NCBI GenBank assembly: GCA_027483445.1
Contig: JAIXUS010000006.1
Location: 1-59,147, forward strand
DNA from: Bacteroidota bacterium
GTDB lineage: Bacteria; Bacteroidota; Bacteroidia; M30B66
Reading direction: 5' to 3'
DNA length: 59,147 nt
Below the pieces are notes generated by a model. That model worked only from the letters and a program-made list of their open reading frames with translations, was not told where the DNA came from and did not search any database. This document shows, one piece after another, positions 6,801-24,956 of this stretch (within the stretch, counting starts at the first letter, position 1; every line of letters begins with the position of its first letter). The position numbers and the translations under genes are program-made.

Positions 6801-9800
6801 ATTCAGCGTAACAAATACGCCCGCATTTGCCGTGCCACCATTAGCCATGGCCAAAGTACCACCTGAAACGGTTAAGTTACCTCCAATATTGGTTGTTCCC
6901 GTTGCAGAAGCTGTAAACAAACGTAGGTCGAAAGAACCCGTGTTAAGAATGGTTAAGTTGTTAGCAATGGTCGTGAAATTTTGTGCCGACGACAGATTCA
7001 CGTTTGCCGTGTGGGTAGCGTTCCACTCCACATCGTAGAAATTTTGATTCAATAGTCCTGGAGGAGCTGTAACGTTGGTTCCCTGAACCCTGAGTAAAGA
7101 ACCAGTTTGCCATGTGGCCACTAAACAGCTACCACCTCCGCCAGTAACGTTGTGCGTGTATATTGCTCCATTGGAAACTGTAGCGGTACCCAAACCATTG
7201 TTGCTGAAAGACAAAGTTGTATTGGTGGCCGTTCCATTAATAACGGTGTTACTTCCAAGCTGAAATACAGTAGTACTGTTAATGTTCAGCGCTCCGTCAA
7301 CCACTAAATCGTTCGCCGCGGGTCCATTAGACAAGGTGAAATTCCCCAATGCTCCAACGGTTAGTGTTCCTCCCGACTGGACCGTAATGTCATCCGCCCA
7401 AACAGTGCTACCTATAGTAATTACGTGCGGACTTCTAATTAAAATACCCTGACTATTCGCGTTGTTTGGCGCTACGCCGGCTGGAACCGGAGCAGGTGAA
7501 ACAAAAGCAGGGTCGGTAGAAACCTCCCAGTTAGAAGCAGTAGCCCAAGGCCCTGTGCTCACTGAGCGATAATAGGTTGCCACGTTGGTTCGTCCCGCAA
7601 TATCAGTGTTGTTCAATGTACCAGTGCCTGGACCTGAAGTTACAGTTAGCACGTTTGCAGAAGCAGAACTAGCAGGGAATTCAGTCCATCCACTGGAAGG
7701 TGGATTAGGGTCAAATATATTCAGTCGAATAGCCGACTCCACGCCAACGATGTCGGAAGCGGTATAAGTAAAGCTACCTGTCCAGTTGTAGGACGGGAAA
7801 GTGGTTGTTGAATTCCAGTAACGATTGAGATAATTGGTAGCCAGTCCCATTTGTGGATGTACCACGTCATCAACCACCCTAAAACCAACTCCACCATTAG
7901 GATTACCGGTAAAGCTTATGGTAACAGGGCTATACTCTGTTGTACCGGTTTCTTCGCCGATTGGATAGGTGATAGAAAGGCTTGAAGGGTTACTCGAGTT
8001 GATTATCAAATAGCCTGTCCCGTTGGTAACAAACATCTTGTTCACGCCAAATGGAGCTCCATTGATGCTTCCAGGAACAGAAATGGTCAAGTTGTTATTT
8101 CCAAGACGGAACAAGCCGTTATTGGTGAAGTTAAATTGGGAAGTTACCGCAACACTCCGATCTAAATCAATTGCAGTATTACCTAACCAAGTAATACTAT
8201 TTACAGTACTAATCAATGGTGTTGTTGTAAACCCGGTAGATTGATTGGTTCCGGTGAACACATAATTAGCGCCAGTATTATAGGTGGCGGTAGCTCCTCC
8301 CAATAAAGAAATTGTGCCGGCTACTCCACCCACCCTTGCTGTTCGGAGGGTTGAATTATTGTTCAAATTGAAGGTACGCGTGCCGGAAGACCTGCTCACT
8401 GTGACCGTAAAGTTCTGAGCATCGAGCGTTGCATTTACGCCAACAGCCATGTTTCCGTCTTGAACTGTTAAATTGCTCAGTAACTGAAGATTTGAAGCTG
8501 TTGCAGAGTTAATGGTAACATTTACAAATACAAAACCTCCAGCACTTCGTGAGTATGTTTGAGGTGCAGTTCCGTTAAAAACGAAAACTCCATTCGGTGC
8601 ATTTGGAGAAGCTGTGTTAATTATCCCTCCTGTAGCGGTATGATTTCCAGCCAAATAGGCAAATCCAGAACCTGTTCCTGTTCCTACTGCAAAATCAAAT
8701 CTCCCTGCAGATTGAATAAAGTTGCCTAGAATAAATGTATTATTTGTACTCAGACTCCCTGTATGTTGGGTGAATCTGGCATTTGAATTAGCAATTTCCA
8801 AATCTCCGTTTATGGTAAATGTCACTCCACCACCAGTTGTAGTTTGCTGAAAATCACCACCATTCAAAGTCATTTTGCCAGTAATTCCATTAGAACCTCC
8901 TGTCCATGCCCTTGTTGGAGTGTAAAGGCCTGTTCCTTCAATAGTGAGGTTGTGATAGCTTCGTCCCGCAACGGCTGTGGTGAAACTTGGAATTGTCTGA
9001 GCTCCAGTTCCGTTATATACAACTGTACTTCCGGTTGTGGTATAAACGCCGGTTCCCGGAGTGAATATACCCGCAATACCAATATTTCCGCTGTTCGACA
9101 ACACGCGGTTGTTATTCGTCGAACTCAAGTTGTTGTAATTGAATGGAACTATAATTTGCCCATTTGGACCATTGTATTGGATGGTATTTCCGGTGGTAAT
9201 GTAATTTCCGGAAGTAAATGCGGCAGCAGGACTAAACACTCCTGCAACGTTAACAACCGCAGCCGAAAGCGTAACATTGTTTGTGGTTCTTACTCCGCTG
9301 ATGGTTAAGTTTTCAAAGCTGAAAGCAGGCACTGTTTGAATGCCGGTTCCGTTGAAATCTACAGTCGAACCGGCAATGGTAAACGGCCCTGAACCAGGAG
9401 TAAAAGTTCCGCAAATTCCGATGGTGCCTGATCCGGCAAGAACCCGCGCACCACCTGAGATATTCAGATTACCGTAGTTAAAGGCCGGTACGTTTTGAGA
9501 ACCGGTGCCACTAATCGCCAAAGTACTGGTGCAATTAAAGGTAGAAGTTGCTGAACTTGAGTAGGTGAAACCTCCATTAATGGTGAGGCTTGAGCCTGCA
9601 CTCATATTAAACTCACCTGTGTTAATCACCGATAAATCGAGTATGGAACGCGTACCGGTAATATCTAACTCGTTGGTGTAAACGATATCTCCAACAATCA
9701 CATTGTCTACTGAACCTGGCGTAAGTCCTGTAAATGGAGTCCAATTGTCTGGATCGCCCCAGTCGCTGCTGGCTGATCCATCCCAACTATAAGTGATCGT

Positions 9801-12800
9801 AGGTGGGTTTATGCGGATGGCAAACTCGTTTACTGTGGCATTCGAAAGGCTGGTTTGGTCGAGTGCTGCGGTGGTGCTGTAGTTTGGTGTGCTGAATGTT
9901 GTGCTGGGTGTACTGTTAAATTCTGTCCACAATGTTCCGTTCCAGCGATTGATGCGCATATTTGAAAAGGAACCTGCACCTAAGTCGCCGGGATCGTTAA
10001 TGGTAAATGTGGGAGTGAAGGTAAATGAGCCAGCAAGAGAATTGCTGATGGTCCAGTAACGGTTTGCAAACTCAGGAGCGGGCGAATTGTTCGGGTGAGC
10101 AGTAGCGATTACCCGTACACCTAAGTTACGTGGTGTAAGGTTTCCGGTGATGTTCAAGGCTACCGGCGAATACGCTCCACCTGCGCCCACAGGGAAAACG
10201 AAGTTGCCTGAGCCCGCATTTACCTGACGCAACAAAGTTCCGGTACCGTTTACTAAAACATACGCTGTAGAGGAACCGCCACTGATGGCACCTGCAGTTC
10301 CGGCCGATACCGTAAGGTTGTTGTTACCGATACTTACGATACCGGCGCTGAGATTCAGCAAGGTGCTTACTGTCGCAGCAGAGGTAAGCGTAACGCCCGC
10401 AGTATTGTTGAAGGTTACAGTAGCACCTCCAGTAAATCCAGTTCCGGTATTCTGTGCTGTTGTTCCATTAAAGGTATAGTTTGCCCCAGTGTTAAAGGTT
10501 CGGATACCCGATGATCGAACCCCACCGGTAGCTCCTGTTGCCGCTATACCATCGGCCTGGCTTGTAGTTAAGGAGGCCCCGGTATTTAAGGTAAATGTAC
10601 CGTTGTTATTCAAAAAGCCAGTACCTGAAAATACAATGGCTCCACCTGTGGCAACATTTATATTGGTGGTATTTGCCGCAATGTTGTTTGTACCACTTAA
10701 GGTTAAGGTTCCCCCTGAGTTTACGTTAAGGGGAGCAGTGATCGAAAATGGACTTGCATTGATATTCAGTGTACCGCCATCCACCTCAACAGAGGTTAGG
10801 GACACCGTTGTTGTTGCTGAGTAGTTTTTGATGCCTGCGTTAATGAAGCGTAGGCGGCTGATTGCAGATCCACCGCCGCCGCTTAAACCACCAGATGTTA
10901 CCGTAAAATCTCCACCAACTCTGAATATCGCATTTTGCCCAGCACCACCGGACGTCCATACTATGGCTGTACCAGAAGCCGCATTTACAAGAACGTTCAC
11001 CAGTACAGTAAACGTTGTTGTAGGGGATGCAGAGGAATTGTTATTAATAAACAAAGAGTTAGTTGTGGTTGGAACCGCCGTGGTGGTGAAGTTATTGACC
11101 GTAATTGTGGAAGTCGCAGCTACTGCCCCCCTGTTCCATGACAATCTAGAGTTACCAGAAAGGACGAGATCGCAATTGTAGGTTCGGTTAATTCCGGTAA
11201 AATCTAAGATTATGTTGTTGGTACCGGAAATTGTCCAGGTACCGTTGATTTGCGTAGGATTGTTGGTTCCTGTAAGTAAGGTTCCGGAAGTCAAACCTGG
11301 AGTATTCCAGGTCCAGTTCCCTAAAGTTTGGCCATTAAATCCGGTAGGAGCTGTTGCTACGGTTCCGGTGATTAAACAGGTGGAAGTAGTATTCCAGGTT
11401 GCTGTAGGAATCACTCCGCCATCGCGGTTATGGTCGTATGTACCGCCGGCCGCAAAAATCAGGTTGGCGGCTGTACCTGTTACCACACCACTAGCGCTGG
11501 CGCGGAGTGTACCGCTTACGGTTGTAGCTACAGCATTGGCTGCAAAGGTTCCGGCAGTTTGAGCAAAAATTGCCGAAGCATTGATTGTACCAACACCATT
11601 CACAGTAACATTTACACCCGAACTCACTGCAGCAGAAGTATTGCTAATGGTGAGATTGTTAAACACTACTGCATTGGTTAATATGCTCTGAGCAGTAGTT
11701 CCGTTAAAGTTTACCGAACTTCCGGTCGTTGTTAACACACCAGCAGTAGAAGTGTAATTTCCGCAAATGCCAATTACACCACTACCGGCCAGAACTCTAG
11801 GTCCGCCGGCTAAATTTAGATTTCCATAGTTGGCTGCAGGAATTGTCGAAGAGGCCGTTCCCGAAATGGTAAGCGTACTTGTACAATTAAATGTTGCTGC
11901 AACGCTACTACTGTATGTGTAAATACCACTAACAGTTAGCGACGAACCCGCAGCCATACTGTAGGTTCCATTACCGTTTACAGTAAAGTCGACACAAGCC
12001 CTTGCACCAGATATCGACAATGCATTGGTGTAGGAAGCCGATGTAGGAATGATGACTAAATCGCTTGCACCGGGAACAGCGGGTGGACCGAAGCTGGGGG
12101 TCCAGTTGGCGCTATTTGCCCAATCGTTGCTCGCACTACCGTTCCAAGTGAACGTGATGATTTGTACCGGTGGCACAAGCTCGCCGCTCGGTAAAAGAAT
12201 CGGCGTTCCGAAATAACCGGCGAAAGTAATTCTCGACAGTTGCGCCGGCAAAAGAGTGCCTGTTGTATTGCCAAAAAAGATACGACCTGCGGTACCAGAT
12301 GCCCCTCCAGTACCAGTCCAACCATTAATAGTTAGCGTTGTTCCGGCCCAGCTTACTGCACTCGAGTTGGCGAATGTTAATGTATGCACACCGGTTCCGA
12401 GTGCAATGGTTGAATTTGCATTGAGATTTAAGGTACCTACGGTTTCAGAAAAACCGGCGGCTGCTCCTGTGCTTAATGTACCACCATTAAGCGTGATATT
12501 GCTGGCATCGGCAATAACGTTGGCCGCGCCTAAACGCAAAATTCCACCAGTAATGGTGGTTGCCCCGGTGTAGGTATTGGTGCCAGAAAGAACCTGTGTT
12601 CCGGTGTTGCTTTTGGTGAGCCCGCCTGTACCTGAAATTACCCCGGCATAAGTATCAGTGCCCGCATTATTGATATCTAAGGTGGCGGTTCCTAACGTTA
12701 CTGATGCAGTGGCACTAGCACTCGCCAATGCTATTCGCTGGTTGTTATTGTTTAGATTTAAAACACCATTCCCGTTAATAGTCACCAAGGGTGGTGTGCC

Positions 12801-14222
12801 TGTTCCCCATTGGTTTGCCGCATCGGTGCGGAGGGTAGCACCCGAAGCAATTGTGGTGTTGGTTGGAATGGCAATTACCCCTGCAGTTTTATTGAGTACC
12901 AACGTTCCGGCATTTAAAGAGGTTGCTCCTGTGTACGTGTTGGCTGAGGTGCCTGAAAAAATTGAAGTACCCGAACCTGAAACGATATAGGCTCCAGCAC
13001 CCGACAATACGCCACTGTAATTAACAGTACCTCCTGCGTTTACAGTTGAAACTAAAAGTCCTCCTGTAGTGCTATTGTTGGTAATATTACCCGAAAATAA
13101 ATGCGTTCCGCTGGTATTTAAACCCCCAATTTCGCGGGTGGTAAGGTTACCATTGTTAATGGTAAAGCTGTTGGTAAAGGTCGTTCCACCGCTAGCATTG
13201 GCCAACCATAGTTTGGCCACATTGGCAAGCTGCCCTCCGTTCCCCACAAAAATCCCACTTCCTGCGGCAATGCTACCTCCGGTGGCAATCCAGAGTTCTC
13301 CGTTATTGATTTGTGTTTGCCCCAAATACGTATTGGCGGCACTTAGGGTAACGTTGCCGGTACCGTTTTTTTGGAAGGTATTGTTTAAGGTGTTGGCAGT
13401 GGTGGAATTGGCATTTAGGCCGTTATTCATAACCCCGGCAATAGTGTACGAGCCATTGCTTTGTCCATGATTGAGTGAGCCTGCATTGGTTACCGTATGT
13501 TGGTTACCTACAGCGCCTAATCCCCAGAAAATATTGCGGTTAGCACCGCCGTCCCAATCGTCGTCTAAGAAAATGCTGTAATCGGTAATTGGGTTAGCCG
13601 AATTCAGGGGAATGTCGTTTAATGTACTTGTGGTTGTTCCGTCGGTCCAGGTGGCATTCATCCGATCGGGCGCCGTAAGGGTAAGGGTAAACGTAAAGTT
13701 TTTGTAGGCGGTTTGTTGCCCGTTCACGTTAGCCGAACCCGTTGAAGTGGTTCCGCCACTGTATTTGGCATACCAAGTATATCCACCACCAGTTCCAGGG
13801 CCATCCATGTTAAACGAAATGGCGTAGTTGTTTTCTCTATCGGCCCAACTGGCGGTAGCGGTTGGATTGGCCAAGAGGGCAAAACCCATTCTTCCGTTGG
13901 CTCGTGTGGCCGAAATGGTTACCACAAACTGATCGCCTACCTGTAATGAGCGGTCGCTGGTTGAGGCCCCCGATCCATCGGTACGAAACTTCCGCCAACG
14001 AACCACTTGTTTGGTTCCTGCGCCATTGGCGAACATTCCCACTTGGTTGGCTCCTTGGTTAAATGAACCTGCTGTACCGGTAGTCCAAGTAGCATAATAG
14101 TTAGCAACTTGTTGAGTGTAGGTCACTGTGGTCTGTCCAAACAGCTTGAGACAACCAAAAAAACAAAAAATCGTTAGCCATAAAACAGGCTGAAAAAGCA
14201 TGCGAGTAGAAAGAGTTTTCAT
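879..14222 (-). CDS. Giant T9SS type A-sorted secreted repeat protein (about 4,447 aa)
   Basis: The frame is open from 14372, but the ATG at 14222 begins a proper signal peptide (MKTLSTRML, a hydrophobic core rich in W, L, F and C, then FGQ), so I start there. Near the N-terminus are autotransporter-type repeats of the form NTYxGxTxIxxGxL. Most of the remainder consists of beta-solenoid-like strands rich in G, T, N and S. W-rich modules (xWNGSASNDWANxxNW) occur near residues 690 and 1480. Four modules with F/YP-V/I-G...YSP, each followed by NRYW or similar, lie near 1345, 2090, 3045 and 4125. A module starting LPVELLDFSA near 4262 precedes the last 85 residues, which form a type A Por sorting domain (FPNPAN, DIAGR, LAPGQYMVSVET). 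Such proteins cross the outer membrane through T9SS and are usually attached or released at the surface; an adhesin or matrix role is inference. Confidence 0.9.
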   Translation of the reverse strand: MKTLSTRMLFQPVLWLTIFCFFGCLKLFGQTTVTYTQQVANYYATWTTGTAGSFNQGANQVGMFANGAGTKQVVRWRKFRTDGSGASTSDRSLQVGDQFVVTISATRANGRMGFALLANPTATASWADRENNYAISFNMDGPGTGGGYTWYAKYSGGTTSTGSANVNGQQTAYKNFTFTLTLTAPDRMNATWTDGTTTSTLNDIPLNSANPITDYSIFLDDDWDGGANRNIFWGLGAVGNQHTVTNAGSLNHGQSNGSYTIAGVMNNGLNANSTTANTLNNTFQKNGTGNVTLSAANTYLGQTQINNGELWIATGGSIAAGSGIFVGNGGQLANVAKLWLANASGGTTFTNSFTINNGNLTTREIGGLNTSGTHLFSGNITNNSTTGGLLVSTVNAGGTVNYSGVLSGAGAYIVSGSGTSIFSGTSANTYTGATSLNAGTLVLNKTAGVIAIPTNTTIASGATLRTDAANQWGTGTPPLVTINGNGVLNLNNNNQRIALASASATASVTLGTATLDINNAGTDTYAGVISGTGGLTKSNTGTQVLSGTNTYTGATTITGGILRLGAANVIADASNITLNGGTLSTGAAAGFSETVGTLNLNANSTIALGTGVHTLTFANSSAVSWAGTTLTINGWTGTGGASGTAGRIFFGNTTGTLLPAQLSRITFAGYFGTPILLPSGELVPPVQIITFTWNGSASNDWANSANWTPSFGPPAVPGASDLVIIPTSASYTNALSISGARACVDFTVNGNGTYSMAAGSSLTVSGIYTYSSSVAATFNCTSTLTISGTASSTIPAANYGNLNLAGGPRVLAGSGVIGICGNYTSTAGVLTTTGSSVNFNGTTAQSILTNAVVFNNLTISNTSAAVSSGVNVTVNGVGTINASAIFAQTAGTFAANAVATTVSGTLRASASGVVTGTAANLIFAAGGTYDHNRDGGVIPTATWNTTSTCLITGTVATAPTGFNGQTLGNWTWNTPGLTSGTLLTGTNNPTQINGTWTISGTNNIILDFTGINRTYNCDLVLSGNSRLSWNRGAVAATSTITVNNFTTTAVPTTTNSLFINNNSSASPTTTFTVLVNVLVNAASGTAIVWTSGGAGQNAIFRVGGDFTVTSGGLSGGGGSAISRLRFINAGIKNYSATTTVSLTSVEVDGGTLNINASPFSITAPLNVNSGGTLTLSGTNNIAANTTNINVATGGAIVFSGTGFLNNNGTFTLNTGASLTTSQADGIAATGATGGVRSSGIRTFNTGANYTFNGTTAQNTGTGFTGGATVTFNNTAGVTLTSAATVSTLLNLSAGIVSIGNNNLTVSAGTAGAISGGSSTAYVLVNGTGTLLRQVNAGSGNFVFPVGAGGAYSPVALNITGNLTPRNLGVRVIATAHPNNSPAPEFANRYWTISNSLAGSFTFTPTFTINDPGDLGAGSFSNMRINRWNGTLWTEFNSTPSTTFSTPNYSTTAALDQTSLSNATVNEFAIRINPPTITYSWDGSASSDWGDPDNWTPFTGLTPGSVDNVIVGDIVYTNELDITGTRSILDLSVINTGEFNMSAGSSLTINGGFTYSSSATSTFNCTSTLAISGTGSQNVPAFNYGNLNISGGARVLAGSGTIGICGTFTPGSGPFTIAGSTVDFNGTGIQTVPAFSFENLTISGVRTTNNVTLSAAVVNVAGVFSPAAAFTSGNYITTGNTIQYNGPNGQIIVPFNYNNLSSTNNNRVLSNSGNIGIAGIFTPGTGVYTTTGSTVVYNGTGAQTIPSFTTAVAGRSYHNLTIEGTGLYTPTRAWTGGSNGITGKMTLNGGDFQQTTTGGGVTFTINGDLEIANSNARFTQHTGSLSTNNTFILGNFIQSAGRFDFAVGTGTGSGFAYLAGNHTATGGIINTASPNAPNGVFVFNGTAPQTYSRSAGGFVFVNVTINSATASNLQLLSNLTVQDGNMAVGVNATLDAQNFTVTVSRSSGTRTFNLNNNSTLRTARVGGVAGTISLLGGATATYNTGANYVFTGTNQSTGFTTTPLISTVNSITWLGNTAIDLDRSVAVTSQFNFTNNGLFRLGNNNLTISVPGSINGAPFGVNKMFVTNGTGYLIINSSNPSSLSITYPIGEETGTTEYSPVTISFTGNPNGGVGFRVVDDVVHPQMGLATNYLNRYWNSTTTFPSYNWTGSFTYTASDIVGVESAIRLNIFDPNPPSSGWTEFPASSASANVLTVTSGPGTGTLNNTDIAGRTNVATYYRSVSTGPWATASNWEVSTDPAFVSPAPVPAGVAPNNANSQGILIRSPHVITIGSTVWADDITVQSGGTLTVGALGNFTLSNGPAANDLVVDGALNINSTTVFQLGSNTVINGTATNTTLSFSNNGLGTATVSNGAIYTHNVTGGGGSCLVATWQTGSLLRVQGTNVTAPPGLLNQNFYDVEWNATHTANVNLSSAQNFTTIANNLTILNTGSFDLRLFTASATGTTNIGGNLTVSGGTLAMANGGTANAGVFVTLNVTGNVLINGGVLSLSGAGQPNAANSTLNIGGNLTISSGRLDFNTSAGGSPSIIGVMTVNLSGNLAVSGTGTIQRTTNLTNRGLFRFNSASGTQTLTGLAASFPADIDYMVGNGTTSPDVVLGSNFIINNNSRLTVRTNGTLVCADNFAVNAATSGNGAFTLESGGTLVIGSPDGITTFGNTTGSIRTGNIAANRVFNTAANYTYASTTSNQVTGTGLPTSHTGILRIENTGAASNNTVTLTTTGSTGSTLQLAAGLFAIGSGQTYNIASGGTVAASGGDFALGVDGGTLNFPGSGTFSGNCNPFNVFAAGGVNFGSGTVTIQNNGRFRINAGGFVATNAPFYAVGSTLEYFSGGAPSSAYGRGLEWSAASGRGFPHHVRIDNNTNLNPAGGSGANAGVVFQTGGDVTITAGSAIFKDWSGFNMTADFIIGGNLELSGSLSGSQASGSDIFIRGNWNNSGTAANFFNNGRAVFFDGTAAQVLSGTNTASNPFAFLIVNNSAGLTLSTTLVEVNNQLTFTNGLITLGNTDLRMNNLNAAVTGASATRYIVTNGTGRFIRNFNTVNGATLFPIGPNASDYSPATLTQNGTNDNIGIRVSTAPPFTNAVNDDAFMVNLEYNFNETTPGGNNLTTTFQWPASLEAGSFVRSNSVYHGDWTGTTYQIRVASATTGSNPYVSTAVGYTGSISNRNFVLGNLIGILPCITTATGGEWTTPGTWTSGIIPPTGSNACITHPVTVTTADPNDMNGVTINPGGSLTLAGTRNLNFVVGGVFDNNSGSVLNLGAGSVSLLGSGSIGGSNAMQFTSLFLSGATTLTTAPTINGTLHMNNGSAVSGSSPVYATNSTLRYSTAGAFTPTLEWSGNGTTAGSGIPHDVEISTGTVLNMPNSNRGLAGNLLISNGTLNLNGTSGDLFIAGNWTRAAASVFNPNNRAVVFNGSANQSIAVTGGGTETFAFLLSSKPSGNLVISSSPATNVTVNASVGNVLQLASNNTIDLNGRTLILSGTGGNINLLGGTSNIIGGAGSLLSISGGTKTVTPNAGATLSFGSNVTVALNSGLNFGPSTSTVNGTLQIALGGFVQTNAPTYASGSTLRYFTGNAFNRGPEWSTNSGPGYPFNVVVDQNGTVTTVNLQPGSGVCQIAGNLTINNGASVNMGNMGIPLNVRGSVAVGGALSGSLTLSTAIGGDLQVGGNLTRNAGGSFTQFSREVEMNGTVTQDIFNFASFSLLAINNSVAPVRINNNTSISERLRLASGTFNLNGFTTTMANNSMVLRANGVMTASPTVVGADQYDMRYDASVTTSVEYLVSATAIRDLIVSSGVTVTLGADRTFNRNLELAGGNLDLGGFTMTARGRTAAPAFSGSITVTGGGTRSVNGPAGSRFNITGLGTNSPLDYTKTVSTFGGTQLSFGSNVLVAIGDGAVDFGVGSPTTINGVLQVLLGGSVGQVLNPCVYAPGSILRFANTVDYQVGPNDKTWATGSIASGLPGIPFNVEVNDVGTDLTLQDTRALRGNLTITNGSFTLAPAYTGSFNIGGNWTRTGATSTFVHNNKEVSFDRQTGGNQTITTSGVIGGGETFFDLEVSPVGGDLLLGTGTALTVRGTLNFITGRFDIGANQLTIGTSTLNGSITGVTPSRYIISTGGSGSVRQFTNLNAVDYLFPVGDATNYSPFTVTLDNGAQAGSFITTTLFTISHPNAVGSTHYLNRYWRVEPTGLAASPVYDVEFTYAAADIVGTETTYRPVKYTSSTPSPGWISAPGSGANAIDGTAANFDLPTKTFTWENLTTFSEFTAAGDGSPLPVELLDFSADVAGNTVVLNWTTASEINNDYFTVERSVDALNFAPIGTVDGAGNSSLTRNYQLIDANPLPGVSYYRLRQTDFNGDFELFGPVAVNFSGSSLTGVALFPNPANEFSHVMINANHSGKGWVRVTDIAGRLVANYQIVMEKGVTPFTLQTSDLAPGQYMVSVETADGKLYNLPLIKQ

Positions 14223-14758
14223 CGATGCAAAAATTGGGGTGGGGATTAAATCAGAGAAATTACGCAGAGAAAAACAGGAATGTTTCAGATTTAGTAAAAA
14301 TCTTACATGAGACGACAATGCTTTAGCCGCCAAATGCATTCCAGTATTGAGATGAACGTATAGTTGTTTCAAAATCAGCGTTGTGTTAAAGGTACAACAA
14401 GGGAAGATTGAAGGAGTTTAAAAGTACACCAATAAGTTATAAGTTCCAAATGAACAAGTAGGTTGATTTTCAACAGTATAGCCATCACCAAATACCTATA
14501 CCGGCTCGAAAAAAAGCATAAATGGTGTCAATCCGACACATAACCTGTTCATAACTTATTGGGTGCTTAGGCTCCTATGGTTTCGGCTGTCGCCTTGATG
14601 ACCGTAATCGTTTCGTAAACAGGGCGTTAAATCAACAAGAGCCCTCAGAACTGCACCCTAAAGCATTCGAACATTACATCTGTAAGTTGAGTATTCATAG
14701 GGGTTTCGCACTAGTTGCGTACCTACCCACCTTTGATGCTGAACTTTAAACCCATTCC
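14223..14758. other. Intergenic region between divergent surface and exported-protein genes
   Basis: There is no gene in these 536 bases. An 11-bp inverted repeat, CAATAAGTTAT (14429-14439) and ATAACTTATTG (14551-14561), brackets about 110 bases. The second arm overlaps the 14-mer ACCTGTTCATAACT (14543-14556), which occurs again in inverse orientation at 43449-43462, upstream of the helical repeat gene. No convincing full promoter was found on either strand. Confidence 0.5.
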
Positions 14759-15251: not shown

Positions 15252-16877
15252 ATGTTTCAACGCCTGTTTCTTTCCATAGCGGCCATAGCCATCGCGGCCC
15301 ACGCCGCTGCCCAAACACCGCCACCCAAACTGGTAATCGGCATTGTGGTTGACCAAATGCGCTACGATTACCTGTACAAATACGCCAACGACTACGGCAA
15401 TGGGGGTTTTAAACGCCTCCTCGACGAAGGACAGCTCTACAGCAACGCCCACTACAGCTATGTGCCCACCTACACCGCACCGGGGCACGCTAGCATCTAC
15501 ACCGGAACCACTCCGGCCCGGCATGGCATCGTAGGCAACGATTGGTACCAGAGGCAATACAGCAAATCTACCTATTGCGTGAGCGACAGTTCGGTGAAAA
15601 CCATCGGTGCCAATACGGTAAAAACCGGACAGATGTCGCCCCGAACCCTCTTGGCCACCACGGTGGGCGATGAACTCCGCGTGGCCTCCAACCGGCGATC
15701 CAAGGTAATTGGTATTGCTTTGAAGGACCGTGCAGCCATCCTCCCGGCAGGGGCCATCGCCAACGGCGCCTACTGGTTCGACGGAGAAAGTGGAAACTTT
15801 ATCACCTCCAGCTTTTACGCCGACAGCCTTCCGCGCTGGCTCAAGGATTTCAACGCCAAACAACGCGGTGCGGCACTGCTCAGCCAAGCCTGGACCCGAC
15901 TGCTGCCTGAAGAAAATTACGATGAAAGTTTGCCCGACGTTAACCCGTATGAAGGACCATTCAAAGGCAACAGTTCGGTGGCTTTCCCTTACGATTTGCC
16001 GAAACTGATGGGCACCAACGGCGGACAAAATCTCATCCGCGCCACGCCCTTTGGCAACACCCTCACCCGCGAAATGGCTGAAGCCGCCATTGTGGGGGAG
16101 CAGCTGGGCAAAGATGCCTTCCCCGATCTGCTCTGTGTGAGCTTCTCCTCGCCCGACTATATCGGCCACCAATTTGGCACCGACGCCCAGGAGCTTCAAG
16201 ACTGCTACCTGCGGCTCGATCGTGAACTGGAAAAACTCATCAGCTTTGCTGAAAACCAGGCAGGAAAAGGAAATGTGTTGATTTTCCTCACCGCCGACCA
16301 TGGTGGAGCTACCGTGCCCGCCTACCTGATGGAGCTCAATGCCCAGGGCGGATACATGAACTACAGTCCCATGCGCGACTCAGTAAACCTCTGGCTGAAC
16401 CGCAAATTTCAGGGCGCAGGCTGGCTCGAGACCATCAGCAATGAGCAACTTTACCTGAACGAAAAAGCCATTGAAGCCGCCGGAAAAAACCTGGGCGAAG
16501 TGGAAGATTACTTGGCTTATAAACTCAGCACTTTTCCCGGCGTACTTCAATCCTTTACGGCAACGCAGATGCGCAGCCAGGAATTCACCACCGGTATTGG
16601 CGCCAAAATTCAAAAAGGCTATTACGCCAAGCGCTCGGGTAATGTGATGCTGGCCCTCGAGCCCAACTGGATGGAATACAGCAAAACCGGCACTACCCAT
16701 GGTTCGCCCTGGACCTACGACACCCGCGTGCCGATGCTCTTCTGGGGTTGGAAACTCAAGCCCGGAGAACAATCGCGCTATGCTACCATCGAAGACATCG
16801 CCCCTACCCTTTCGCACTGGCTGAATATTCCTTTCCCGAATGCCTGCAGCGGCTTTATTTTGCAGCCCCGACCATGA
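15252..16877 (+). CDS. pafA: PafA-type alkaline phosphatase
   Basis: A 541-residue exported phosphomonoesterase of the alkaline phosphatase superfamily. A signal peptide covers residues 1-21 (ending AHAAAQ). Active-site features can be seen in family order: the metal-binding Asp34 in GIVVDQMR, nucleophile Thr75 in YTAPGHASIYTG, Asn96 in GNDW, the K-D-R triplet in IALKDRAAILP (the Lys-x-Arg that distinguishes PafA), DYIGHQFG, TADHGGATVP and GTTHGSPW. This set matches the zinc ligands and phosphate contacts known for Elizabethkingia PafA, with Thr rather than Ser as nucleophile. It probably releases phosphate from organic phosphate esters in the periplasm. A TAAATTGC near-match to the -7 consensus sits 4 bases before the ATG. 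Its TGA overlaps the next gene's ATG (ATGA), so the two are translationally coupled. Confidence 0.93.
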   Translation: MFQRLFLSIAAIAIAAHAAAQTPPPKLVIGIVVDQMRYDYLYKYANDYGNGGFKRLLDEGQLYSNAHYSYVPTYTAPGHASIYTGTTPARHGIVGNDWYQRQYSKSTYCVSDSSVKTIGANTVKTGQMSPRTLLATTVGDELRVASNRRSKVIGIALKDRAAILPAGAIANGAYWFDGESGNFITSSFYADSLPRWLKDFNAKQRGAALLSQAWTRLLPEENYDESLPDVNPYEGPFKGNSSVAFPYDLPKLMGTNGGQNLIRATPFGNTLTREMAEAAIVGEQLGKDAFPDLLCVSFSSPDYIGHQFGTDAQELQDCYLRLDRELEKLISFAENQAGKGNVLIFLTADHGGATVPAYLMELNAQGGYMNYSPMRDSVNLWLNRKFQGAGWLETISNEQLYLNEKAIEAAGKNLGEVEDYLAYKLSTFPGVLQSFTATQMRSQEFTTGIGAKIQKGYYAKRSGNVMLALEPNWMEYSKTGTTHGSPWTYDTRVPMLFWGWKLKPGEQSRYATIEDIAPTLSHWLNIPFPNACSGFILQPRP

Positions 16878-18598
16878 ACCACTTACACTACGATTTTAGC
16901 TGGCAGCGCGCCAATACGCAACTCATCGACATTTGCTTTACCGTGCAGCAGAACACCGAAGCATTGGTGGAGCTCTGCCTGCCAGCATGGCGTCCGGGGC
17001 GCTACGAACTGGGCAACTTTGCCAAAAATATCCGCAGCTTTAAGGTTGAAAACCTGCGAGGTGAAGCACTGAGCTACCAAAAGCTGAGTAAAGACCGCTG
17101 GCAGATTGAGGCCGCCGACAATACAGCCTTTCGGGTGCGCTACCAATACTACGCCGCCGATCTCAATGCCGGCTCCAGCTTTCTCGACACCGAGCAGCTT
17201 TATGTAAATCCGGTGAACTGCTGCGTTTATCTACCGGATCGTATGGAGGAGCCTTGTAGCGTAAAGTTAAACATCCCCGAAAACTGGCAGGTGGCCTCCG
17301 ACCTTCCCCGCGGAGCGGAACCCACCCTACTGCTGGCCGACACTTTCGACCGCCTGGCCGATGCCCCGTGGATTGCCTCCCCCAGCCTTCAGCACCGAAG
17401 CTTTAGCACCCGTAACCATACCTTTCACCTTTGGTTTCAAGGCATCAGCAATCCGCCCTGGGAAAAACTTCTGCGCGACTTTGAGCCCTTTTGTGCCGCT
17501 CAACTCGAGGCCATGGGACCACTGCCCGCTCCAGAGTTCCACTTCCTCTTCCAGATTCTGCCCAATTTCTTTTACCATGGCGTGGAGCATACCCAATCGA
17601 CCGTTTGCGCACTGGGACCGGGTATGGCCGTGTTTGAAGGCAGCGGTTACGACGACCTCCTCGGCGTAAGCAGCCATGAGCTTTACCACGCCTGGAACGT
17701 TAAAACCCTTCGTCCGGCCGATATGCAACCCTACCGCTTCGACCGCGAGAATTACAGCAGGCTCGGCTGGGTGTACGAGGGCATCACCACCTATTATGGC
17801 GACCAATACCTCATCCGTTCGGGCGTTTTTTCGGCAGAGCAATATTTTGAAACCCTCAACGAGAAGCTGCACAAGCACTTCGTGAATTACGGCCGCTTTA
17901 ACCAAAGTGTGGCTGAGGCCAGTTTCGACACCTGGCTCGATGGCTATGTGCCGGGCATTCCACACCGAAAAACCTCCATTTACACCGAAGGCAGCCTGAT
18001 TGCCCTGATGCTTGATGTTGAGCTGCGCAAGTCATCCAACAACCAAAAAAGCCTCGACGATGTAATGCGCTACCTACTTGGCAATCACCTGCATTACACA
18101 CGCGAACACCTCATCGAAGCGCTGGAGAATTGCGGTCTTGCCCAGGCCGAAAGCCATTACCGCAGTTTGGTAGAAAACGTTCCGCTGCCCGAAGAACGCT
18201 TGCAGGCGGCCCTCGCCTACCTCGGACTAGAGCTTTACGAGCACAAGCACCTCAGCGAACATGAACACCGATTTGGCATGCAGCTCATCGATCAGGGCGG
18301 TTGGTACAATGTGGGCTGGATTGCGCCCGACAGTCCGGCTGAAAAGGCAGGCCTTCAAACCGGCGATTTGTTTCTGGCCCTCAACGGACAGCGGCTGGGC
18401 AAATCGGCCAAAGCCCAATGGGCAGAAGCCATGCAACGCGACGAGTGCCTAATCCACTTCTTCCACGAAGGTAAGCTGCGCGAAAAAGTGATGCAGTTCG
18501 ATAGCCGCAACTATTTCGTAAGCCGAAAAGCCCGCATACAGGCCAATGCCGGTGCGGCCGAAGTCGAAGCCCGAAAAGCCTGGGCCGTAAATCTCTAA
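16874..18598 (+). CDS. M61-family metallopeptidase with PDZ domain
   Basis: I start at the ATG at 16874, which overlaps the pafA stop by four bases (ATGA); the frame is open further upstream, but that part would lie inside pafA. The 574-residue product has the M61 beta-domain at the N-terminus, the zinc site HELYH at 268-272 followed by AWNVKTLRP (the family pattern is HExxHxWNxKxxRP), and the third ligand in GWVYEGITTYYGDQ around Glu302. The C-terminal roughly 100 residues form a PDZ domain (GWIAPDSPAEKAGLQTGD). No signal peptide is visible, so a cytoplasmic location is likely. M61 enzymes include glycyl aminopeptidases; the substrate here is not known. It is probably co-transcribed with pafA. 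Confidence 0.92.
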   Translation: MNHLHYDFSWQRANTQLIDICFTVQQNTEALVELCLPAWRPGRYELGNFAKNIRSFKVENLRGEALSYQKLSKDRWQIEAADNTAFRVRYQYYAADLNAGSSFLDTEQLYVNPVNCCVYLPDRMEEPCSVKLNIPENWQVASDLPRGAEPTLLLADTFDRLADAPWIASPSLQHRSFSTRNHTFHLWFQGISNPPWEKLLRDFEPFCAAQLEAMGPLPAPEFHFLFQILPNFFYHGVEHTQSTVCALGPGMAVFEGSGYDDLLGVSSHELYHAWNVKTLRPADMQPYRFDRENYSRLGWVYEGITTYYGDQYLIRSGVFSAEQYFETLNEKLHKHFVNYGRFNQSVAEASFDTWLDGYVPGIPHRKTSIYTEGSLIALMLDVELRKSSNNQKSLDDVMRYLLGNHLHYTREHLIEALENCGLAQAESHYRSLVENVPLPEERLQAALAYLGLELYEHKHLSEHEHRFGMQLIDQGGWYNVGWIAPDSPAEKAGLQTGDLFLALNGQRLGKSAKAQWAEAMQRDECLIHFFHEGKLREKVMQFDSRNYFVSRKARIQANAGAAEVEARKAWAVNL

Positions 18599-18630: not shown

Positions 18631-19650
18631 ATGAAACTCTATCTCGAATCGAACCTCCACAGCGAAATTGCGCAGGCTGCCGAAACACGGCTGTTTAGCG
18701 GACTCAATGCCCGCCTTAACACATTGCGGCGGCCCGGTGAGGCCCTCGAGACCCTGGCGCTTGAGCTTTCAGGGCGCTTTCCGAGCCTGCATGTAGAGGC
18801 CTTGGGCGCTCTGGCCCACGAGATTGTGCACGAGGCGCACCGATTGCAACATGCCGGACTGGAGGCGCAATCGACCCTTTTTCGGTTTCCGGTATCGTTC
18901 GAAGCCATTAAGGCCTGTCGCGAGCTTGAAGACAGCGGGCTGCACTGCCACCTTGAGTTTGTGGGCAGCCAGCAACAGGGCTGGATGGCCATGGAAGCCG
19001 GGGCAAGCCTGATTAGCATTCCACTCGATGGCCTTCAACAGCAAGGTATGGATTACCTGCGCACGGCCGAAGCCTGCATGAACATTGCCTCACGCTACAG
19101 CTACCCAACACAGGTTATGCTAAGCGGCGTGCAGCAAAGTGCCCAGTTTCGCGAGGCCCTCAGCCTGGGTGTCGATGCCGTTTCGGCGCCCCTCAGCCTC
19201 TGCATACAAGCGCCCGAAAGCCCTTGGGCCAGCAACAATGCCCGCGAGCTGCTGGGCCAATCGCGACTCAACACCTTGCGGGTGGCCGACGTGTTGCGCA
19301 AAGTAAACCCAACCGTGAACCTCAATGAGAAGATAGTAGAGGCTGTTGTCCAAATGAGCAGGGGCGGCATGGGCGCAGTAGCCATTGTAGATGCCGATGG
19401 CAACATTGCCGGGGTATTTACCGATGGCGATTTACGCCGACAACTCGAACGCCACGGGGCCGATGTTTTGCAAGTGCAGCTAAGCACACTACCCCTAAAA
19501 ACGCCCGCCTCCATTGAGGCCGATGCCTTTTTGGCCGAAGCCGCCAGCCTCTTTGCCGAGCGCCGCATCGACAACGTACTGGTAACCGACAATGGCCGCC
19601 TGGTAGGCATGCTCGACATTCAGGATTTAAATACAAACAAACTCTGGTAA
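18631..19650 (+). CDS. Transaldolase/FSA-like barrel fused to a CBS pair; catalytic residues replaced
   Basis: A 339-residue fusion. Residues 1-215 follow the fructose-6-phosphate aldolase (small transaldolase) fold: MKLYLES at the start, LHVEALGALAHEIVHEA, FRFPVSFEAIKAC and GWMAMEAGASLIS line up with the family's LYLDT, AEV.A....MV.EA, VKIPVT.EGL.A and QALLAA.AGA. Compared with E. coli FSA recalled from memory, Asp6 is Glu6, the TTNPS loop is gone (NARLN, 26-30), and Schiff-base Lys85 is Arg85, so aldolase activity is unlikely. Residues 225-339 are two CBS domains (VAIVDADGNIAGVFTDGDLRR and VLVTDNGRLVGMLDIQDL) that resemble those of arabinose-5-phosphate isomerase KdsD. A ligand-sensing or regulatory role is inference. 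Confidence 0.75.
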   Translation: MKLYLESNLHSEIAQAAETRLFSGLNARLNTLRRPGEALETLALELSGRFPSLHVEALGALAHEIVHEAHRLQHAGLEAQSTLFRFPVSFEAIKACRELEDSGLHCHLEFVGSQQQGWMAMEAGASLISIPLDGLQQQGMDYLRTAEACMNIASRYSYPTQVMLSGVQQSAQFREALSLGVDAVSAPLSLCIQAPESPWASNNARELLGQSRLNTLRVADVLRKVNPTVNLNEKIVEAVVQMSRGGMGAVAIVDADGNIAGVFTDGDLRRQLERHGADVLQVQLSTLPLKTPASIEADAFLAEAASLFAERRIDNVLVTDNGRLVGMLDIQDLNTNKLW

Positions 19651-21013: not shown

Positions 21014-21027
21014 ATTATTTGACCAAT

Positions 21028-21354
21028 ATGGCAACAGTTAAGAAGACAAAATCATTTGGAGAACATCTTAGACATCTAAGAGAGGAAGCGGGATTGACTT
21101 TGAAATTTGTTTCAGAGCAAATTAGTATTGACACTTCCCTTCTAGCTAAGATTGAACGCAACGAAAGACAGCCGACAAAGCAAATTATTAAGCAATTTGC
21201 TGACTTTTTTAAAGTTGACGAAAAAGAATTGCAGAATGATTTTTTAAGTGATCAAATAGCTTACAAAATTCTTGACGAGGAAGCAGATTTAAGTATCTTA
21301 AAAGTTGCTGAGGAAAAAGTGAAATATCTAAAAACTGTTCACAATGGAAAATGA
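21028..21354 (+). CDS. XRE-family HTH regulator of the restriction-modification operon
   Basis: A TTG three codons upstream could also start the frame, but the ATG at 21028 fits better with the predicted transcription start near 21017. The product is 108 residues. Residues about 8-65 are a classic Cro/CI helix-turn-helix domain (LRHLREEAGLTLKFVSEQ, then IDTSLLAKIERNERQPTKQ), followed by a charged C-terminal helix. Controller-type and solitary HTH proteins of this size often open type II restriction operons and time endonuclease expression. It overlaps the methyltransferase start by 11 bases, so the two are co-translated, and the inverted repeat over its promoter is the likely binding site. 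Confidence 0.88.
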   Translation: MATVKKTKSFGEHLRHLREEAGLTLKFVSEQISIDTSLLAKIERNERQPTKQIIKQFADFFKVDEKELQNDFLSDQIAYKILDEEADLSILKVAEEKVKYLKTVHNGK

Positions 21355-22642
21355 AATTAAAGTCGTAGAATTATTTGCAGGTGTTGGAGGGTTTCGTCTT
21401 GGACTTGAAGGATGGAATGGAAAATCTGCATCATCAGGGTATAATAAATCACTAAAATCGCCTTATAAAGTGGTTTGGAGTAACCAATGGGAACCATCAA
21501 CAAAAACTCAACACGCTTCTTTGGTTTACGAAAATCGTTTTGGAAAAAATGGACATTCAAATGAAGACATTGCACAAGTTGATGTTTCCAATATTCCCGA
21601 CCACGATTTATTAGTAGGCGGTTTTCCTTGCCAAGATTATTCGGTTGCCACAACACTAAAAAATTCCAAAGGACTTATCGGAAAGAAAGGTGTTTTGTGG
21701 TGGAGTATTCAAAAAATAATTTCAGAGAAAAAGAATAAGCCAAAGTATTTATTCTTTGAAAACGTTGACAGACTTCTCATTTCGCCATCAGGACAACGAG
21801 GACGAGACTTTGCAATTATCTTACAAAGTTTAAATGAATTGGGTTATGCTGTTGAGTGGAGGGTTGTAAATGCAGCAGATTTTGGTATGCCACAAAGACG
21901 AAGAAGAGTTTTCATCCTAGCATATTTAGAAGGAACATCAATTCACGAAAGTTTAAAAGAAGTTACTCCAACTGAATGGATTTTAGATGAAGGAACTTTA
22001 GCAGAAGCATTTCCAGTGACTTCTGGAAATTCATTGTTTCCAACTGAATTTAAACTCAAAGGTGATATTGTTTCAATATCAGAAAACTTCAATAAAAACC
22101 GAACAACAGGACTTTTTGAAAACACAGGTTTAATGATAAACGGTTTTGTTACAACTTTAAAGACACAACCAAACTATGATGGAAAGTTCACGATTTTGAG
22201 AGACCTTATTCAAAACGGAGAGGTAACATCAGAGTTTTATATTGACAAAAAAGACCTTGACAAATGGGCGTATTTAAAAGGTCCAAAAAAAGAAATGCGG
22301 ACAAATGCACAAGGCTTTGAATATCATTACAGCGAGGGAGGAATGATTTTTCCAGATCCGTTAGACAAACCTTCAAGAACAATAATAACCGGTGAAGGAG
22401 GAAAATCTCCATCAAGATTTAAACACGTAATCCAAACTCCAAAAGGTTACAGACGACTTTCGCCAGTAGAACTTGAACGATTAAATATGTTTCCTGACGA
22501 CCACACAAAACTTGAAGGAGTTTCAGATACCAAAAGAGCTTTCTTTATGGGTAACGCTTTAGTTGTAGGTGTAATTGAAAAAATTGGAATTGCTTTAAAT
22601 CAAAAAATCACGAATGAAGTTGCCTTACAATCCGAAAGATAA
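21344..22642 (+). CDS. DNA (cytosine-5) methyltransferase of a type II system
   Basis: A 432-residue C5-MTase with its motifs in order: I (VVELFAGVGGFRLGLEG, SAM binding, residues 7-23), IV with catalytic Cys96 (VGGFPCQDYSVA), VI (FENVDRLL), VIII (QRRRRVFILAY), the variable target-recognition region (about 215-340), then IX/X (YRRLSPVELERLNMFPD and FFMGNALVVGVI). It methylates cytosine to protect the host from the adjacent nuclease. Because that nuclease looks Sau3AI-like, the target is predicted to be GATC with the C methylated; this is inference. It overlaps the regulator upstream (11 bases) and the nuclease downstream (29 bases). AT-rich codon use matches the island. Confidence 0.95.
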   Translation: MENEIKVVELFAGVGGFRLGLEGWNGKSASSGYNKSLKSPYKVVWSNQWEPSTKTQHASLVYENRFGKNGHSNEDIAQVDVSNIPDHDLLVGGFPCQDYSVATTLKNSKGLIGKKGVLWWSIQKIISEKKNKPKYLFFENVDRLLISPSGQRGRDFAIILQSLNELGYAVEWRVVNAADFGMPQRRRRVFILAYLEGTSIHESLKEVTPTEWILDEGTLAEAFPVTSGNSLFPTEFKLKGDIVSISENFNKNRTTGLFENTGLMINGFVTTLKTQPNYDGKFTILRDLIQNGEVTSEFYIDKKDLDKWAYLKGPKKEMRTNAQGFEYHYSEGGMIFPDPLDKPSRTIITGEGGKSPSRFKHVIQTPKGYRRLSPVELERLNMFPDDHTKLEGVSDTKRAFFMGNALVVGVIEKIGIALNQKITNEVALQSER

Positions 22643-23999
22643 AAAATCAGTTATTGATTATGCTAAGTTGCTTAAAGGAAAAACTTTAAGACAGATTTGC
22701 GACCCACTAATTTTAGAACACAACTACACAGGTAAAGGAAACTTCGGGCAAATACTTGAGAAGTATTACTTTGGTTATGATCCTAATTCCAAATCAAAAG
22801 CAGACTTCTTTGAGATTGGAATGGAACTCAAATCTTCACCTTTAAAGCAGTTGAAGAACGATGAGTATCGTTCAAAGGAAAGACTAGTATTAAACATAAT
22901 CAATTACCTAGAAGTTGTAAATCAACAATTTGAGGAAAGTGACTTTTGGAAAAAGAATGCAAATATTCTTTTGATTTTTTATTTGCATCAAGCAGGTTAT
23001 GACATTCTAGATTACCTAATAAAACTTGTTGACGAGTGGAATTTTCCAAGCACAGACTTAGAAATAATAAAAAAGGATTGGGAGTTAATCAAACAAAAGA
23101 TTGCTGACGGTAAAGCACACGAACTTTCAGAAGGTGATACGTTTTATTTAGGTGCTTGCACAAAAGGAGCTAACGCTTCATCAGTTCGGAAACAACCTTA
23201 TAGCGAAATACCAGCAAAACAAAGAGCTTACTCGCTAAAACAAGGATATGTAAATCATATCATTGCTTCAATTGCCAATGAAGCAACAGGAGTTTATGGC
23301 AAACTCATTCCATCAGTTGCTGTTGCAAAAAAGCAAACAATTGAAGAAATTGTTGTTTCTAAATTCAAGCCATATTACGGTAAGGCCGTTGACCAAATAA
23401 TTGCTATAACAGGAGTTGAATTAAATACAACTGCAAAAAGTTTTTATGCCAATCTTACAAAAGCAATTTTAGGAATTGAACTTGACAAAGAAATTGAAGA
23501 ATTTGAAAAGGCTGAAATCATTGTAAAGACTGTAAGACTTAAAGAAAACAATTTACCGAAAGAGGACATTTCATTTCCAAATTTCAAATACGAAGAAATC
23601 GTAAATGAAGAATGGGACGACTCCAATTTCAAAGACATTTTAGAACACAAATTTCTGTTCGTGTTTTTTCAATTTGAAAACGACCAATTGATTCTAAAAA
23701 AAGTTAAGTTTTGGAATATGCCTTATGCAGACATTTTGGAAGCAGAGAAAGTTTGGGCAAAGACAAAAGAGATTGTTTCAAAAGGCAAAATTGTAAAGAA
23801 AGTTATTGGAACAACTCGTTACACAAACTTTCCAAACAAATCTTTCAATTCAGTATCACACGTAAGACCACACGCCACAAACGCAGCAGACACCTTTCCT
23901 TTGCCTACAAAAGACAAATTGACGAAAGCAAAAGAATATACGAAACATTGTTTTTGGCTTAATAACACTTATGTAAGAGACGAAATTTATTTAAAATAG
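22614..23999 (+). CDS. Sau3AI/MutH-like type II restriction endonuclease
   Basis: A 461-residue protein starting inside the end of the methyltransferase gene. The N-terminal half has the MutH/Sau3AI nuclease pattern: GNFGQILEKYYFG with Glu49, then Asp64 and Glu71-x-Lys73 in KADFFEIGMELKSS. The Asp-to-Glu spacing of 7 and the ExK match MutH. The C-terminal half is the size of the second, catalytically inactive MutH-like domain of Sau3AI and carries SHVRPHATNAADTFPLPT near its end, a phrase seen in this family. Sau3AI cuts GATC; the same specificity is predicted here. It is the last gene of the module, followed by an A/C-rich spacer and attC-like site 2. Confidence 0.88.
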   Translation: MKLPYNPKDKKSVIDYAKLLKGKTLRQICDPLILEHNYTGKGNFGQILEKYYFGYDPNSKSKADFFEIGMELKSSPLKQLKNDEYRSKERLVLNIINYLEVVNQQFEESDFWKKNANILLIFYLHQAGYDILDYLIKLVDEWNFPSTDLEIIKKDWELIKQKIADGKAHELSEGDTFYLGACTKGANASSVRKQPYSEIPAKQRAYSLKQGYVNHIIASIANEATGVYGKLIPSVAVAKKQTIEEIVVSKFKPYYGKAVDQIIAITGVELNTTAKSFYANLTKAILGIELDKEIEEFEKAEIIVKTVRLKENNLPKEDISFPNFKYEEIVNEEWDDSNFKDILEHKFLFVFFQFENDQLILKKVKFWNMPYADILEAEKVWAKTKEIVSKGKIVKKVIGTTRYTNFPNKSFNSVSHVRPHATNAADTFPLPTKDKLTKAKEYTKHCFWLNNTYVRDEIYLK

Positions 24000-24328: not shown

Positions 24329-24640
24329 ATGAAACTGATCGATGACAACAAAGAAAAGCTCATTGAACTTTGTGATAGATACAAGGTCAAAGAGTTATAT
24401 CTATTTGGATCAATTCTAACAGCACGGTTTATAGACTCAAGCGATATTGATGTCTTAGTGCAATTCAGCGATATCGAACTCGAAAAGTACTTTGATAACT
24501 ACATGGATTTCAAAGAACAACTCGAGTTATTATTTGAAAGAGAGATTGATCTTGTTGAAAATCAAGCAATACGAAATCCAATTTTTAGACGTGTTGTTGA
24601 TAGAGAAAAGAAACTTGTATATGAACGAAAGAATTCTTAA
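24329..24640 (+). CDS. mntA: MNT-domain nucleotidyltransferase antitoxin (MntA-like)
   Basis: A 103-residue minimal nucleotidyltransferase. The active-site signature GSX10DXD is exact: Gly27-Ser28, ten residues, Asp39-x-Asp41 (LFGSILTARF then SSDIDVLVQF). A third acidic position follows in EREIDLVE. In the characterised MntA-HepT systems the MNT protein is an antitoxin that transfers AMP groups to a tyrosine of the HEPN toxin. It overlaps the downstream HEPN gene by 20 bases, a standard toxin-antitoxin arrangement. It is carried as the third unit of the cassette island. Confidence 0.92.
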   Translation: MKLIDDNKEKLIELCDRYKVKELYLFGSILTARFIDSSDIDVLVQFSDIELEKYFDNYMDFKEQLELLFEREIDLVENQAIRNPIFRRVVDREKKLVYERKNS

Positions 24641-24956
24641 ATATCTTTTTGATGTAAAAATAGCTATCGATGAAATTGATTCATTTTTTATCGGTTTAGA
24701 TAAACGCTTTGATGCATACAAAGAAAATACACTTTTAAAAAGAGCTATTGAAAGAAACCTTGAAATAATTGGTGAAGCTATTAATAGAATAATTAAAATT
24801 GAACCTGAATTCCCAATAGTTAATGCTAAGAAAATAGTTGGATTAAGAAATCAAATAATCCATTCGTATGATAATATTTCAGATGAAAATATTTGGGGGA
24901 TAATTATCAATCATTTACCAGCGCTCAAATTAGAAATCGAACACCTGATAAAATAA
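24621..24956 (+). CDS. hepT: HEPN-domain toxin (HepT-like RNase)
   Basis: The frame is open back to 24492, but the ATG at 24621 gives a product of normal HepT length (111 residues) starting MNERILKYLFDVKIAID, as in the family. An all-helical HEPN protein. The RNase motif RX4HXY is intact: Arg76-Asn77-x3-His81-Ser-Tyr83 (LRNQIIHSYDN), with Tyr83 the residue AMPylated by MntA in characterised systems. It is the toxic partner of the preceding gene. Downstream, CACTAAC at 24967-24973 resembles the left core of the attC-like sites but no arms follow, so the array appears to end here. Confidence 0.92.
   Translation: MNERILKYLFDVKIAIDEIDSFFIGLDKRFDAYKENTLLKRAIERNLEIIGEAINRIIKIEPEFPIVNAKKIVGLRNQIIHSYDNISDENIWGIIINHLPALKLEIEHLIK

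Follow-up and report, generated by a model that had tools for sequence, protein, structure and literature searches.

A transaldolase-type barrel is joined to a KdsD-type CBS pair

What role could remain for an aldolase-like barrel that lacks its catalytic lysine and is joined to the CBS domains of a different enzyme? This question is raised by a gene in the stretch of Bacteroidota DNA analysed here (59,147 nucleotides in full; hereafter, the window). The features of this locus are as follows.

15252..16877, + strand: PafA-type alkaline phosphatase (NCBIfam PafA, 3e-210, above cutoff), a conserved neighbour in the window's family
16877..18598, + strand: M61 glycyl-aminopeptidase/PDZ gene (Pfam; synteny), directly upstream of the fusion on the same strand and likewise a conserved neighbour in the window's family
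18631..19650, + strand: fusion gene for a transaldolase/FSA-like barrel and a CBS pair, 339 aa (Pfam, NCBIfam), with full-length orthologues in five other genomes of the window's family
18631..19281, + strand: TAL/FSA-type (beta/alpha)8 barrel with linking helix, residues 1-217, judged catalytically dead (AlphaFold model, active-site table)
19282..19632, + strand: KdsD-type CBS pair, residues 218-334 (Pfam CBS, kpsF/KdsD models, 4o9k, CBS tree)
19420..19440, + strand: TDGDLRR motif of the KdsD CBS pair (CBS alignment), shared by all six proteins of the window's family

The first half of the protein is a transaldolase barrel, as the preliminary description had supposed. Residues 52-200 matched Pfam TAL_FSA (PF00923) above its cutoff (E = 1.1e-9; 38.5 bits versus 27), and the NCBIfam model fsa_talC_mipB (TIGR00875) covered residues 1-194 (9.7e-15) with a score of 54.6 bits, far below its equivalog cutoff of 245.95; a canonical TalC scoring 285.6 bits (NCBIfam) is encoded separately in the same genome (L076). 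In the AlphaFold model (mean pLDDT 90.5), residues 1-217 superposed on the TalC-type transaldolases 3r8r/3s0c with a Z of 27 (VIA-align), and the modelled barrel superposed on E. coli FSA (1l6w) with a Z of 25.3. The alignment of this half with FSA, on which the earlier reading was built, therefore holds for the fold, but the family profile was nearer to the small TalC-type transaldolases (1vpx, 2e-45) than to FSA proper (1l6w, 6e-22).

The second half also proved to be what had been proposed, a KdsD-type CBS pair, and it is conserved in the window's family. It matched Pfam CBS (E = 4.6e-17), and its top solved match was 4o9k, the CBS pair of an arabinose-5-phosphate isomerase (8e-17). The NCBIfam kpsF, GutQ and KdsD models matched the C-terminal half only (kpsF/KdsD, 1.5e-19), the kpsF model just at its positions 145-267, and the SIS catalytic domain is absent. 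In a CBS tree, the fusions formed one clade (100/99) nested within the KdsD proteins of Bacteroidota (91/81), for which the simplest history would be that the SIS domain of KdsD was swapped for a transaldolase barrel and the CBS pair was kept. We take CMP-Kdo, rather than adenine nucleotides, to be the likely ligand of KdsD-type CBS pairs, in view of the 4o9k and 3k2v structures, and CMP-Kdo is by analogy the predicted ligand of the fusion; the literature searched yielded nothing usable on whether CMP-Kdo inhibits KdsD via the CBS pair.

Loss of the active site in the window's protein

Replacement of Asp6, of the TTNPS loop and of Lys85 had been reported at the outset, and all three changes were correct by alignment. 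A further change, absent from that report, was found at the phosphate-binding arginine.

18646..18648, + strand: codon 6, Glu replacing catalytic Asp6 (alignment, site table)
18706..18720, + strand: codons 26-30, NARLN replacing the TTNPS/TTTPT loop (alignment)
18883..18885, + strand: codon 85, Arg (cgg) replacing Schiff-base Lys85 (sequence, alignment)
19030..19032, + strand: codon 134, Gly replacing phosphate-binding Arg134 (alignment)

In the site table, the pocket of the window's protein reads E6, N26, E59, R85, G134 and G166. In FSA, the Schiff base forms on Lys85 (PMC13259622). No substitute for it was found in the barrel, whose only lysines, K2 and K94, are neither conserved in the family nor placed at the active site, in agreement with the loss claimed before. 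Because Lys85 is lost and no conserved lysine occurs elsewhere, the barrel can be regarded securely as dead as a class I aldolase, and the protein as a lysine-less pseudoenzyme with respect to Schiff-base chemistry.

The six homologues of the window's family carry R,R,R,R,S,R at position 85 (Ser in G007; Lys in 0/6) and G,G,S,D,E,E at position 134 (Arg in 0/6). Conservation of the replacements, which the preliminary description had suggested checking, was partial: Arg85 is present in five and Glu6 in four of these six proteins, but D6 and K85 occur in all 18 relatives outside the family. A repurposed enzyme that acts on another sugar phosphate by a new non-lysine chemistry, using for example Glu6, Glu56 and Arg85, would account for a barrel fold kept with high confidence and under purifying selection, and for the acidic residue at the E59-equivalent position in 6/6 homologues. 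We nevertheless consider this explanation rather unlikely, given that FSA positions 26, 28, 107, 109, 131 and 134 are all variable among the six homologues, that Arg85 itself gives way to Ser in one of them, and that only 19 barrel columns are invariant, most of them Gly, Ala or structural.

Intact fusions probably replace KdsD in Kdo synthesis

Kdo, a sugar of the bacterial outer membrane, is required by nearly all Gram-negative bacteria, and the formation of arabinose 5-phosphate (A5P) by KdsD is regarded as the entry step. Homologues of the fusion were collected from 60 relatives, a 395-genome sample of the phylum and the GTDB collection, gene presence being decided by family searches. The full-length architecture was found in 13 of the 60 relatives (the window's genome and 12 others), in five further genomes of the phylum sample and at seven loci from GTDB, of which one lies on the same contig as in G001; G021 has a partial copy, cut by the end of its contig. 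Fusions outside its genus share 34-41% identity with the window's protein over the full length. Two classes could be distinguished, 18 intact-type proteins versus the six of the window's family, and the pocket residues D6, T26, T28, E59, K85, N107, H109, C129, L131, R134 and S166 are invariant in 18/18 of the former. The same architecture, sought in other Bacteroidota at the suggestion of the preliminary description, is thus present there in 18 homologues, but with its catalytic residues intact. The proposal that this architecture is inherently a dead sensor does not hold, since D6, T26, K85, R134 and S166 are kept in every one of these relatives.

The fusions share the fold of TalC/FSA/MipB (Z 25-27), and the intact relatives retain the Schiff-base lysine, Asp6, Arg134 and Ser166. 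They differ from TalC/FSA/MipB in the added CBS pair and, in the intact type, in a pocket of their own (T28, E59, N107, H109, C129, L131), in which E59 and a non-Tyr residue at 131 are more transaldolase-like than FSA-like; the window's protein is without the lysine, the phosphate-binding Arg and the TTNPS loop. In the intact-type fusions L040, L041 and L042 (8001-9011), the CBS motif TDGDLRR reads TDGSLRK beside an intact barrel, a hint of weakened or altered ligand binding.

A frequent gene order around the intact-type fusion was kdnA-kdnB-kdsA-fusion-HAD-kdsB, in which kdsA and kdsB were assigned by NCBIfam above cutoff, kdnA by 5k8b (1.7e-127) and kdnB by 5k8c (4e-123); the HAD-like phosphatase was named from its motif, with no NCBIfam match at the threshold used. 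KdsA was present, and a KdsD SIS domain was not found, in 19/19 genomes with an intact-type fusion (one fusion being partial). Among the 60 relatives, 37 were KdsA-positive (two of these calls rest on sub-cutoff or partial matches), of which 29 had a KdsD SIS domain and eight had the fusion, with none having both or neither; the probability of such a perfect split by random chance is about 1 in 38.6 million if kinship is ignored. The 11 further fusion genomes outside the 60 were all KdsA-positive (one partial) and lacked KdsD.

We regard it as secure that the family's other members look catalytically intact and are tied to Kdo synthesis, and as probable that the intact-type fusion replaces KdsD. 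Like KdsD/GutQ/KpsF (SIS plus CBS), it has the same CBS pair, it lies in kdsA operons, and it appears to take the place of KdsD in all genomes tested; unlike them, it carries a transaldolase-type barrel instead of the SIS domain, and in the window this barrel is inactive too. For Bacteroidota that have the full Kdo pathway but no KdsD, the fusion family is a candidate answer, with another chemistry and the same CBS sensor. No paper describing the replacement of KdsD by such a fusion was found in the open-access literature of PMC.

The preliminary description had proposed a sensor or regulator of sugar-phosphate metabolism with a nucleotide-sensing module, which can be read as a general energy- or adenylate-sensing regulator of central sugar-phosphate metabolism. 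CBS pairs often bind adenine nucleotides, and binding of a sugar phosphate by the barrel is still conceivable. The Kdo context does not suit this idea, however: the CBS pair branches within KdsD and keeps TDGDLRR, the intact relatives reside in Kdo operons of KdsA-positive, KdsD-negative genomes, and none of the six proteins of the window's family retains the phosphate-binding Arg134, which makes a general adenylate sensor very improbable.

Another explanation would make the intact-type fusion a mere regulator, with A5P coming from an unrelated isomerase and the window's protein having no A5P-forming ancestor. An A5P source outside the KdsD family is compatible with the searches made, but the 19 genomes without a KdsD-type SIS domain, the signature D6 T26 E59 K85 N107 H109 C129 L131 R134 S166 that is invariant in 18/18, and the greater conservation of the barrel than of the CBS pair in 153/153 intact-type pairs (identities of 0.78 and 0.55) argue for a working enzyme, and we find a purely regulatory fusion fairly improbable.

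We propose instead that, in a Bacteroidota ancestor, a TalC-type transaldolase barrel took the place of the SIS domain of KdsD, with the regulatory CBS pair retained. The intact ancestral type would supply A5P for Kdo by lysine/Schiff-base aldol chemistry, and we infer that A5P is the product of today's intact-type fusions; their CBS pair would sense CMP-Kdo, the end product of the pathway. A5P might be released in a transaldolase-type reaction from octulose 8-phosphate (for its chemistry, see PMC5854111), or it might be made from glycolaldehyde and glyceraldehyde 3-phosphate, as FSA can do (PMC9947464 and references there). The transaldolase-type release is slightly favoured because the pocket of the intact type is transaldolase-like. 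PDB entry 3upb, a transaldolase covalently bound to arabinose 5-phosphate, is listed among the structural matches to the barrel.

A second possible precursor route in the window's family

Canonical KdsA was found in 0/10 genomes of the window's family, with no match over the cutoff in the window's genome. KdsB is present in all ten and WaaA in eight, indicating that this family still produces Kdo or something closely similar. The possibility that the window's protein still supplies A5P was rejected, as it has no catalytic lysine and its genome has no KdsA.

In the window's family, an RPE-like protein, a protein of the DAHP-synthase subfamily and a KdsC-type phosphatase are encoded in a row. 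The RPE-like and DAHPS-type genes, usually with a KdsC-like gene, were clustered in 20 KdsA-less relatives (nine of the window's family and 11 others), at loci such as L071:6397-9037 (window's genome, contig C71) and L074:6617-9106. This cluster is possibly a second alternative route to the Kdo precursor.

The RPE-like protein, found here and unnamed in the libraries searched, parallels the fusion in that another sugar-phosphate barrel, of ribulose-phosphate-3-epimerase type, is attached to a KdsD-like CBS pair, and it adjoins a 3-deoxy-ulosonate-type synthase and the KdsC phosphatase; its CBS pair belongs to a separate branch. Its barrel models as RPE, with the active-site residues H31, D33, H58 and D160 invariant, and a canonical RPE is encoded separately in most genomes of the window's family. 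Outside this family, the KdsD-like CBS pair is intact, with the motif in 11/11 proteins; within it, the first CBS domain is without the motif and about a dozen residues are missing, and the CBS pair is broken in the copy of the window's genome (L071:6397-7353).

Other candidates were set aside. The KdsA-like matches in KdsA-less genomes were not ordinary sialate synthases, the one tested falling with the DAHP synthases (NCBIfam), and the kdsB neighbourhoods of these genomes gave no second clue. A lone SIS protein, KdsD-like, on contig C67 of the window's genome (L062, G000:C67:69000-87000) was not accepted as a true KdsD: it lies beside FabF in a stretch of 58.7% GC, versus 45-47% for the assembly, is absent from the family's other genomes and is probably foreign or contaminating.

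Selection on the fusion and its likely role in the window's family

In the window's family, the conservation seen in the intact type is reversed: identity is lower in the barrel (0.36) than in the CBS pair (0.57) in 14 of 15 pairs, and the window's protein keeps 44/92 of the barrel columns, against 18/19 of the CBS columns, in which intact-type proteins do not vary. The dN/dS of the barrel half was 0.05 between G001 and G003, a single genome pair with near-saturated dS; comparisons with the window's protein itself were saturated. This low ratio suggests that the barrel fold is needed without its chemistry, perhaps because it supports the oligomeric assembly that is typical of barrels of this family. 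The reversal, the kept CBS columns, the TDGDLRR motif and the barrel dN/dS together suggest that the protein serves the Kdo route as a CBS sensor without catalytic activity.

Alternatively, the gene could be a functionless relic that lingers after the loss of kdsA and of the aldolase role and will decay. The lack of kdsA in the window's family, the missing catalytic residues, a barrel identity of only about 0.3 between genera and the absence of the fusion from the complete genome G008 are all compatible with decay, but we judge it unlikely, as neither the barrel dN/dS nor the near-complete set of CBS columns is expected of a relic, and the ORF is intact with the same neighbours in six genomes of three genera.

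On balance we lean, with modest confidence, towards a pseudoenzyme that descends from an A5P-supplying, KdsD-derived fusion and is retained for its CBS pair as a predicted sensor or regulator in Kdo synthesis. The dead barrel and the descent from the Kdo pathway are the well-supported parts of this reading. The RPE-like protein, the DAHPS-type condensing enzyme and the KdsC phosphatase would have taken over the steps to the Kdo precursor in the window's family, the barrel chemistry would have been lost and the protein kept for its CBS pair. It would then sense a ligand and, without catalysis of its own, serve the Kdo route as a partner or regulator, presumably acting in trans and perhaps substituting for the broken CBS pair of the RPE-like protein, and would show the fate of a CBS sensor after its enzyme is no longer needed. 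Counting against this explanation, the fusion gene adjoins pafA and the M61 peptidase gene, not the RPE-like cluster. Moreover, the fusion is absent from G008 (100% complete) and from three incomplete genomes of the window's family in which the RPE-like CBS pair is likewise broken, and a CBS pair acting in trans is therefore not obligatory.

A bolder form of this scenario would have KdsD replaced at least twice, by the transaldolase and by the RPE-like barrel, each joined to the CBS sensor of KdsD; both replacements would have co-existed in the window's lineage and degenerated reciprocally, leaving a dead-barrel, CMP-Kdo-sensing protein to regulate the dead-CBS RPE-like protein in trans. We hold this form to be doubtful.

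Three further loci were noted in the window. Just downstream of the fusion, a C5 cytosine methylase and a MutH/Sau3AI-like endonuclease, with an HTH protein upstream, form a restriction-modification island (21019-23999) of about 35% GC, versus 47% for the window. An MNT-like nucleotidyltransferase and a HepT-like ribonuclease at 24329-24956 constitute a HEPN/MNT toxin-antitoxin module. On the minus strand, positions 879-14372 hold a single ORF of 4497 aa for a giant surface protein, rich in autotransporter-like repeats and with a domain of sorting type at its C terminus.
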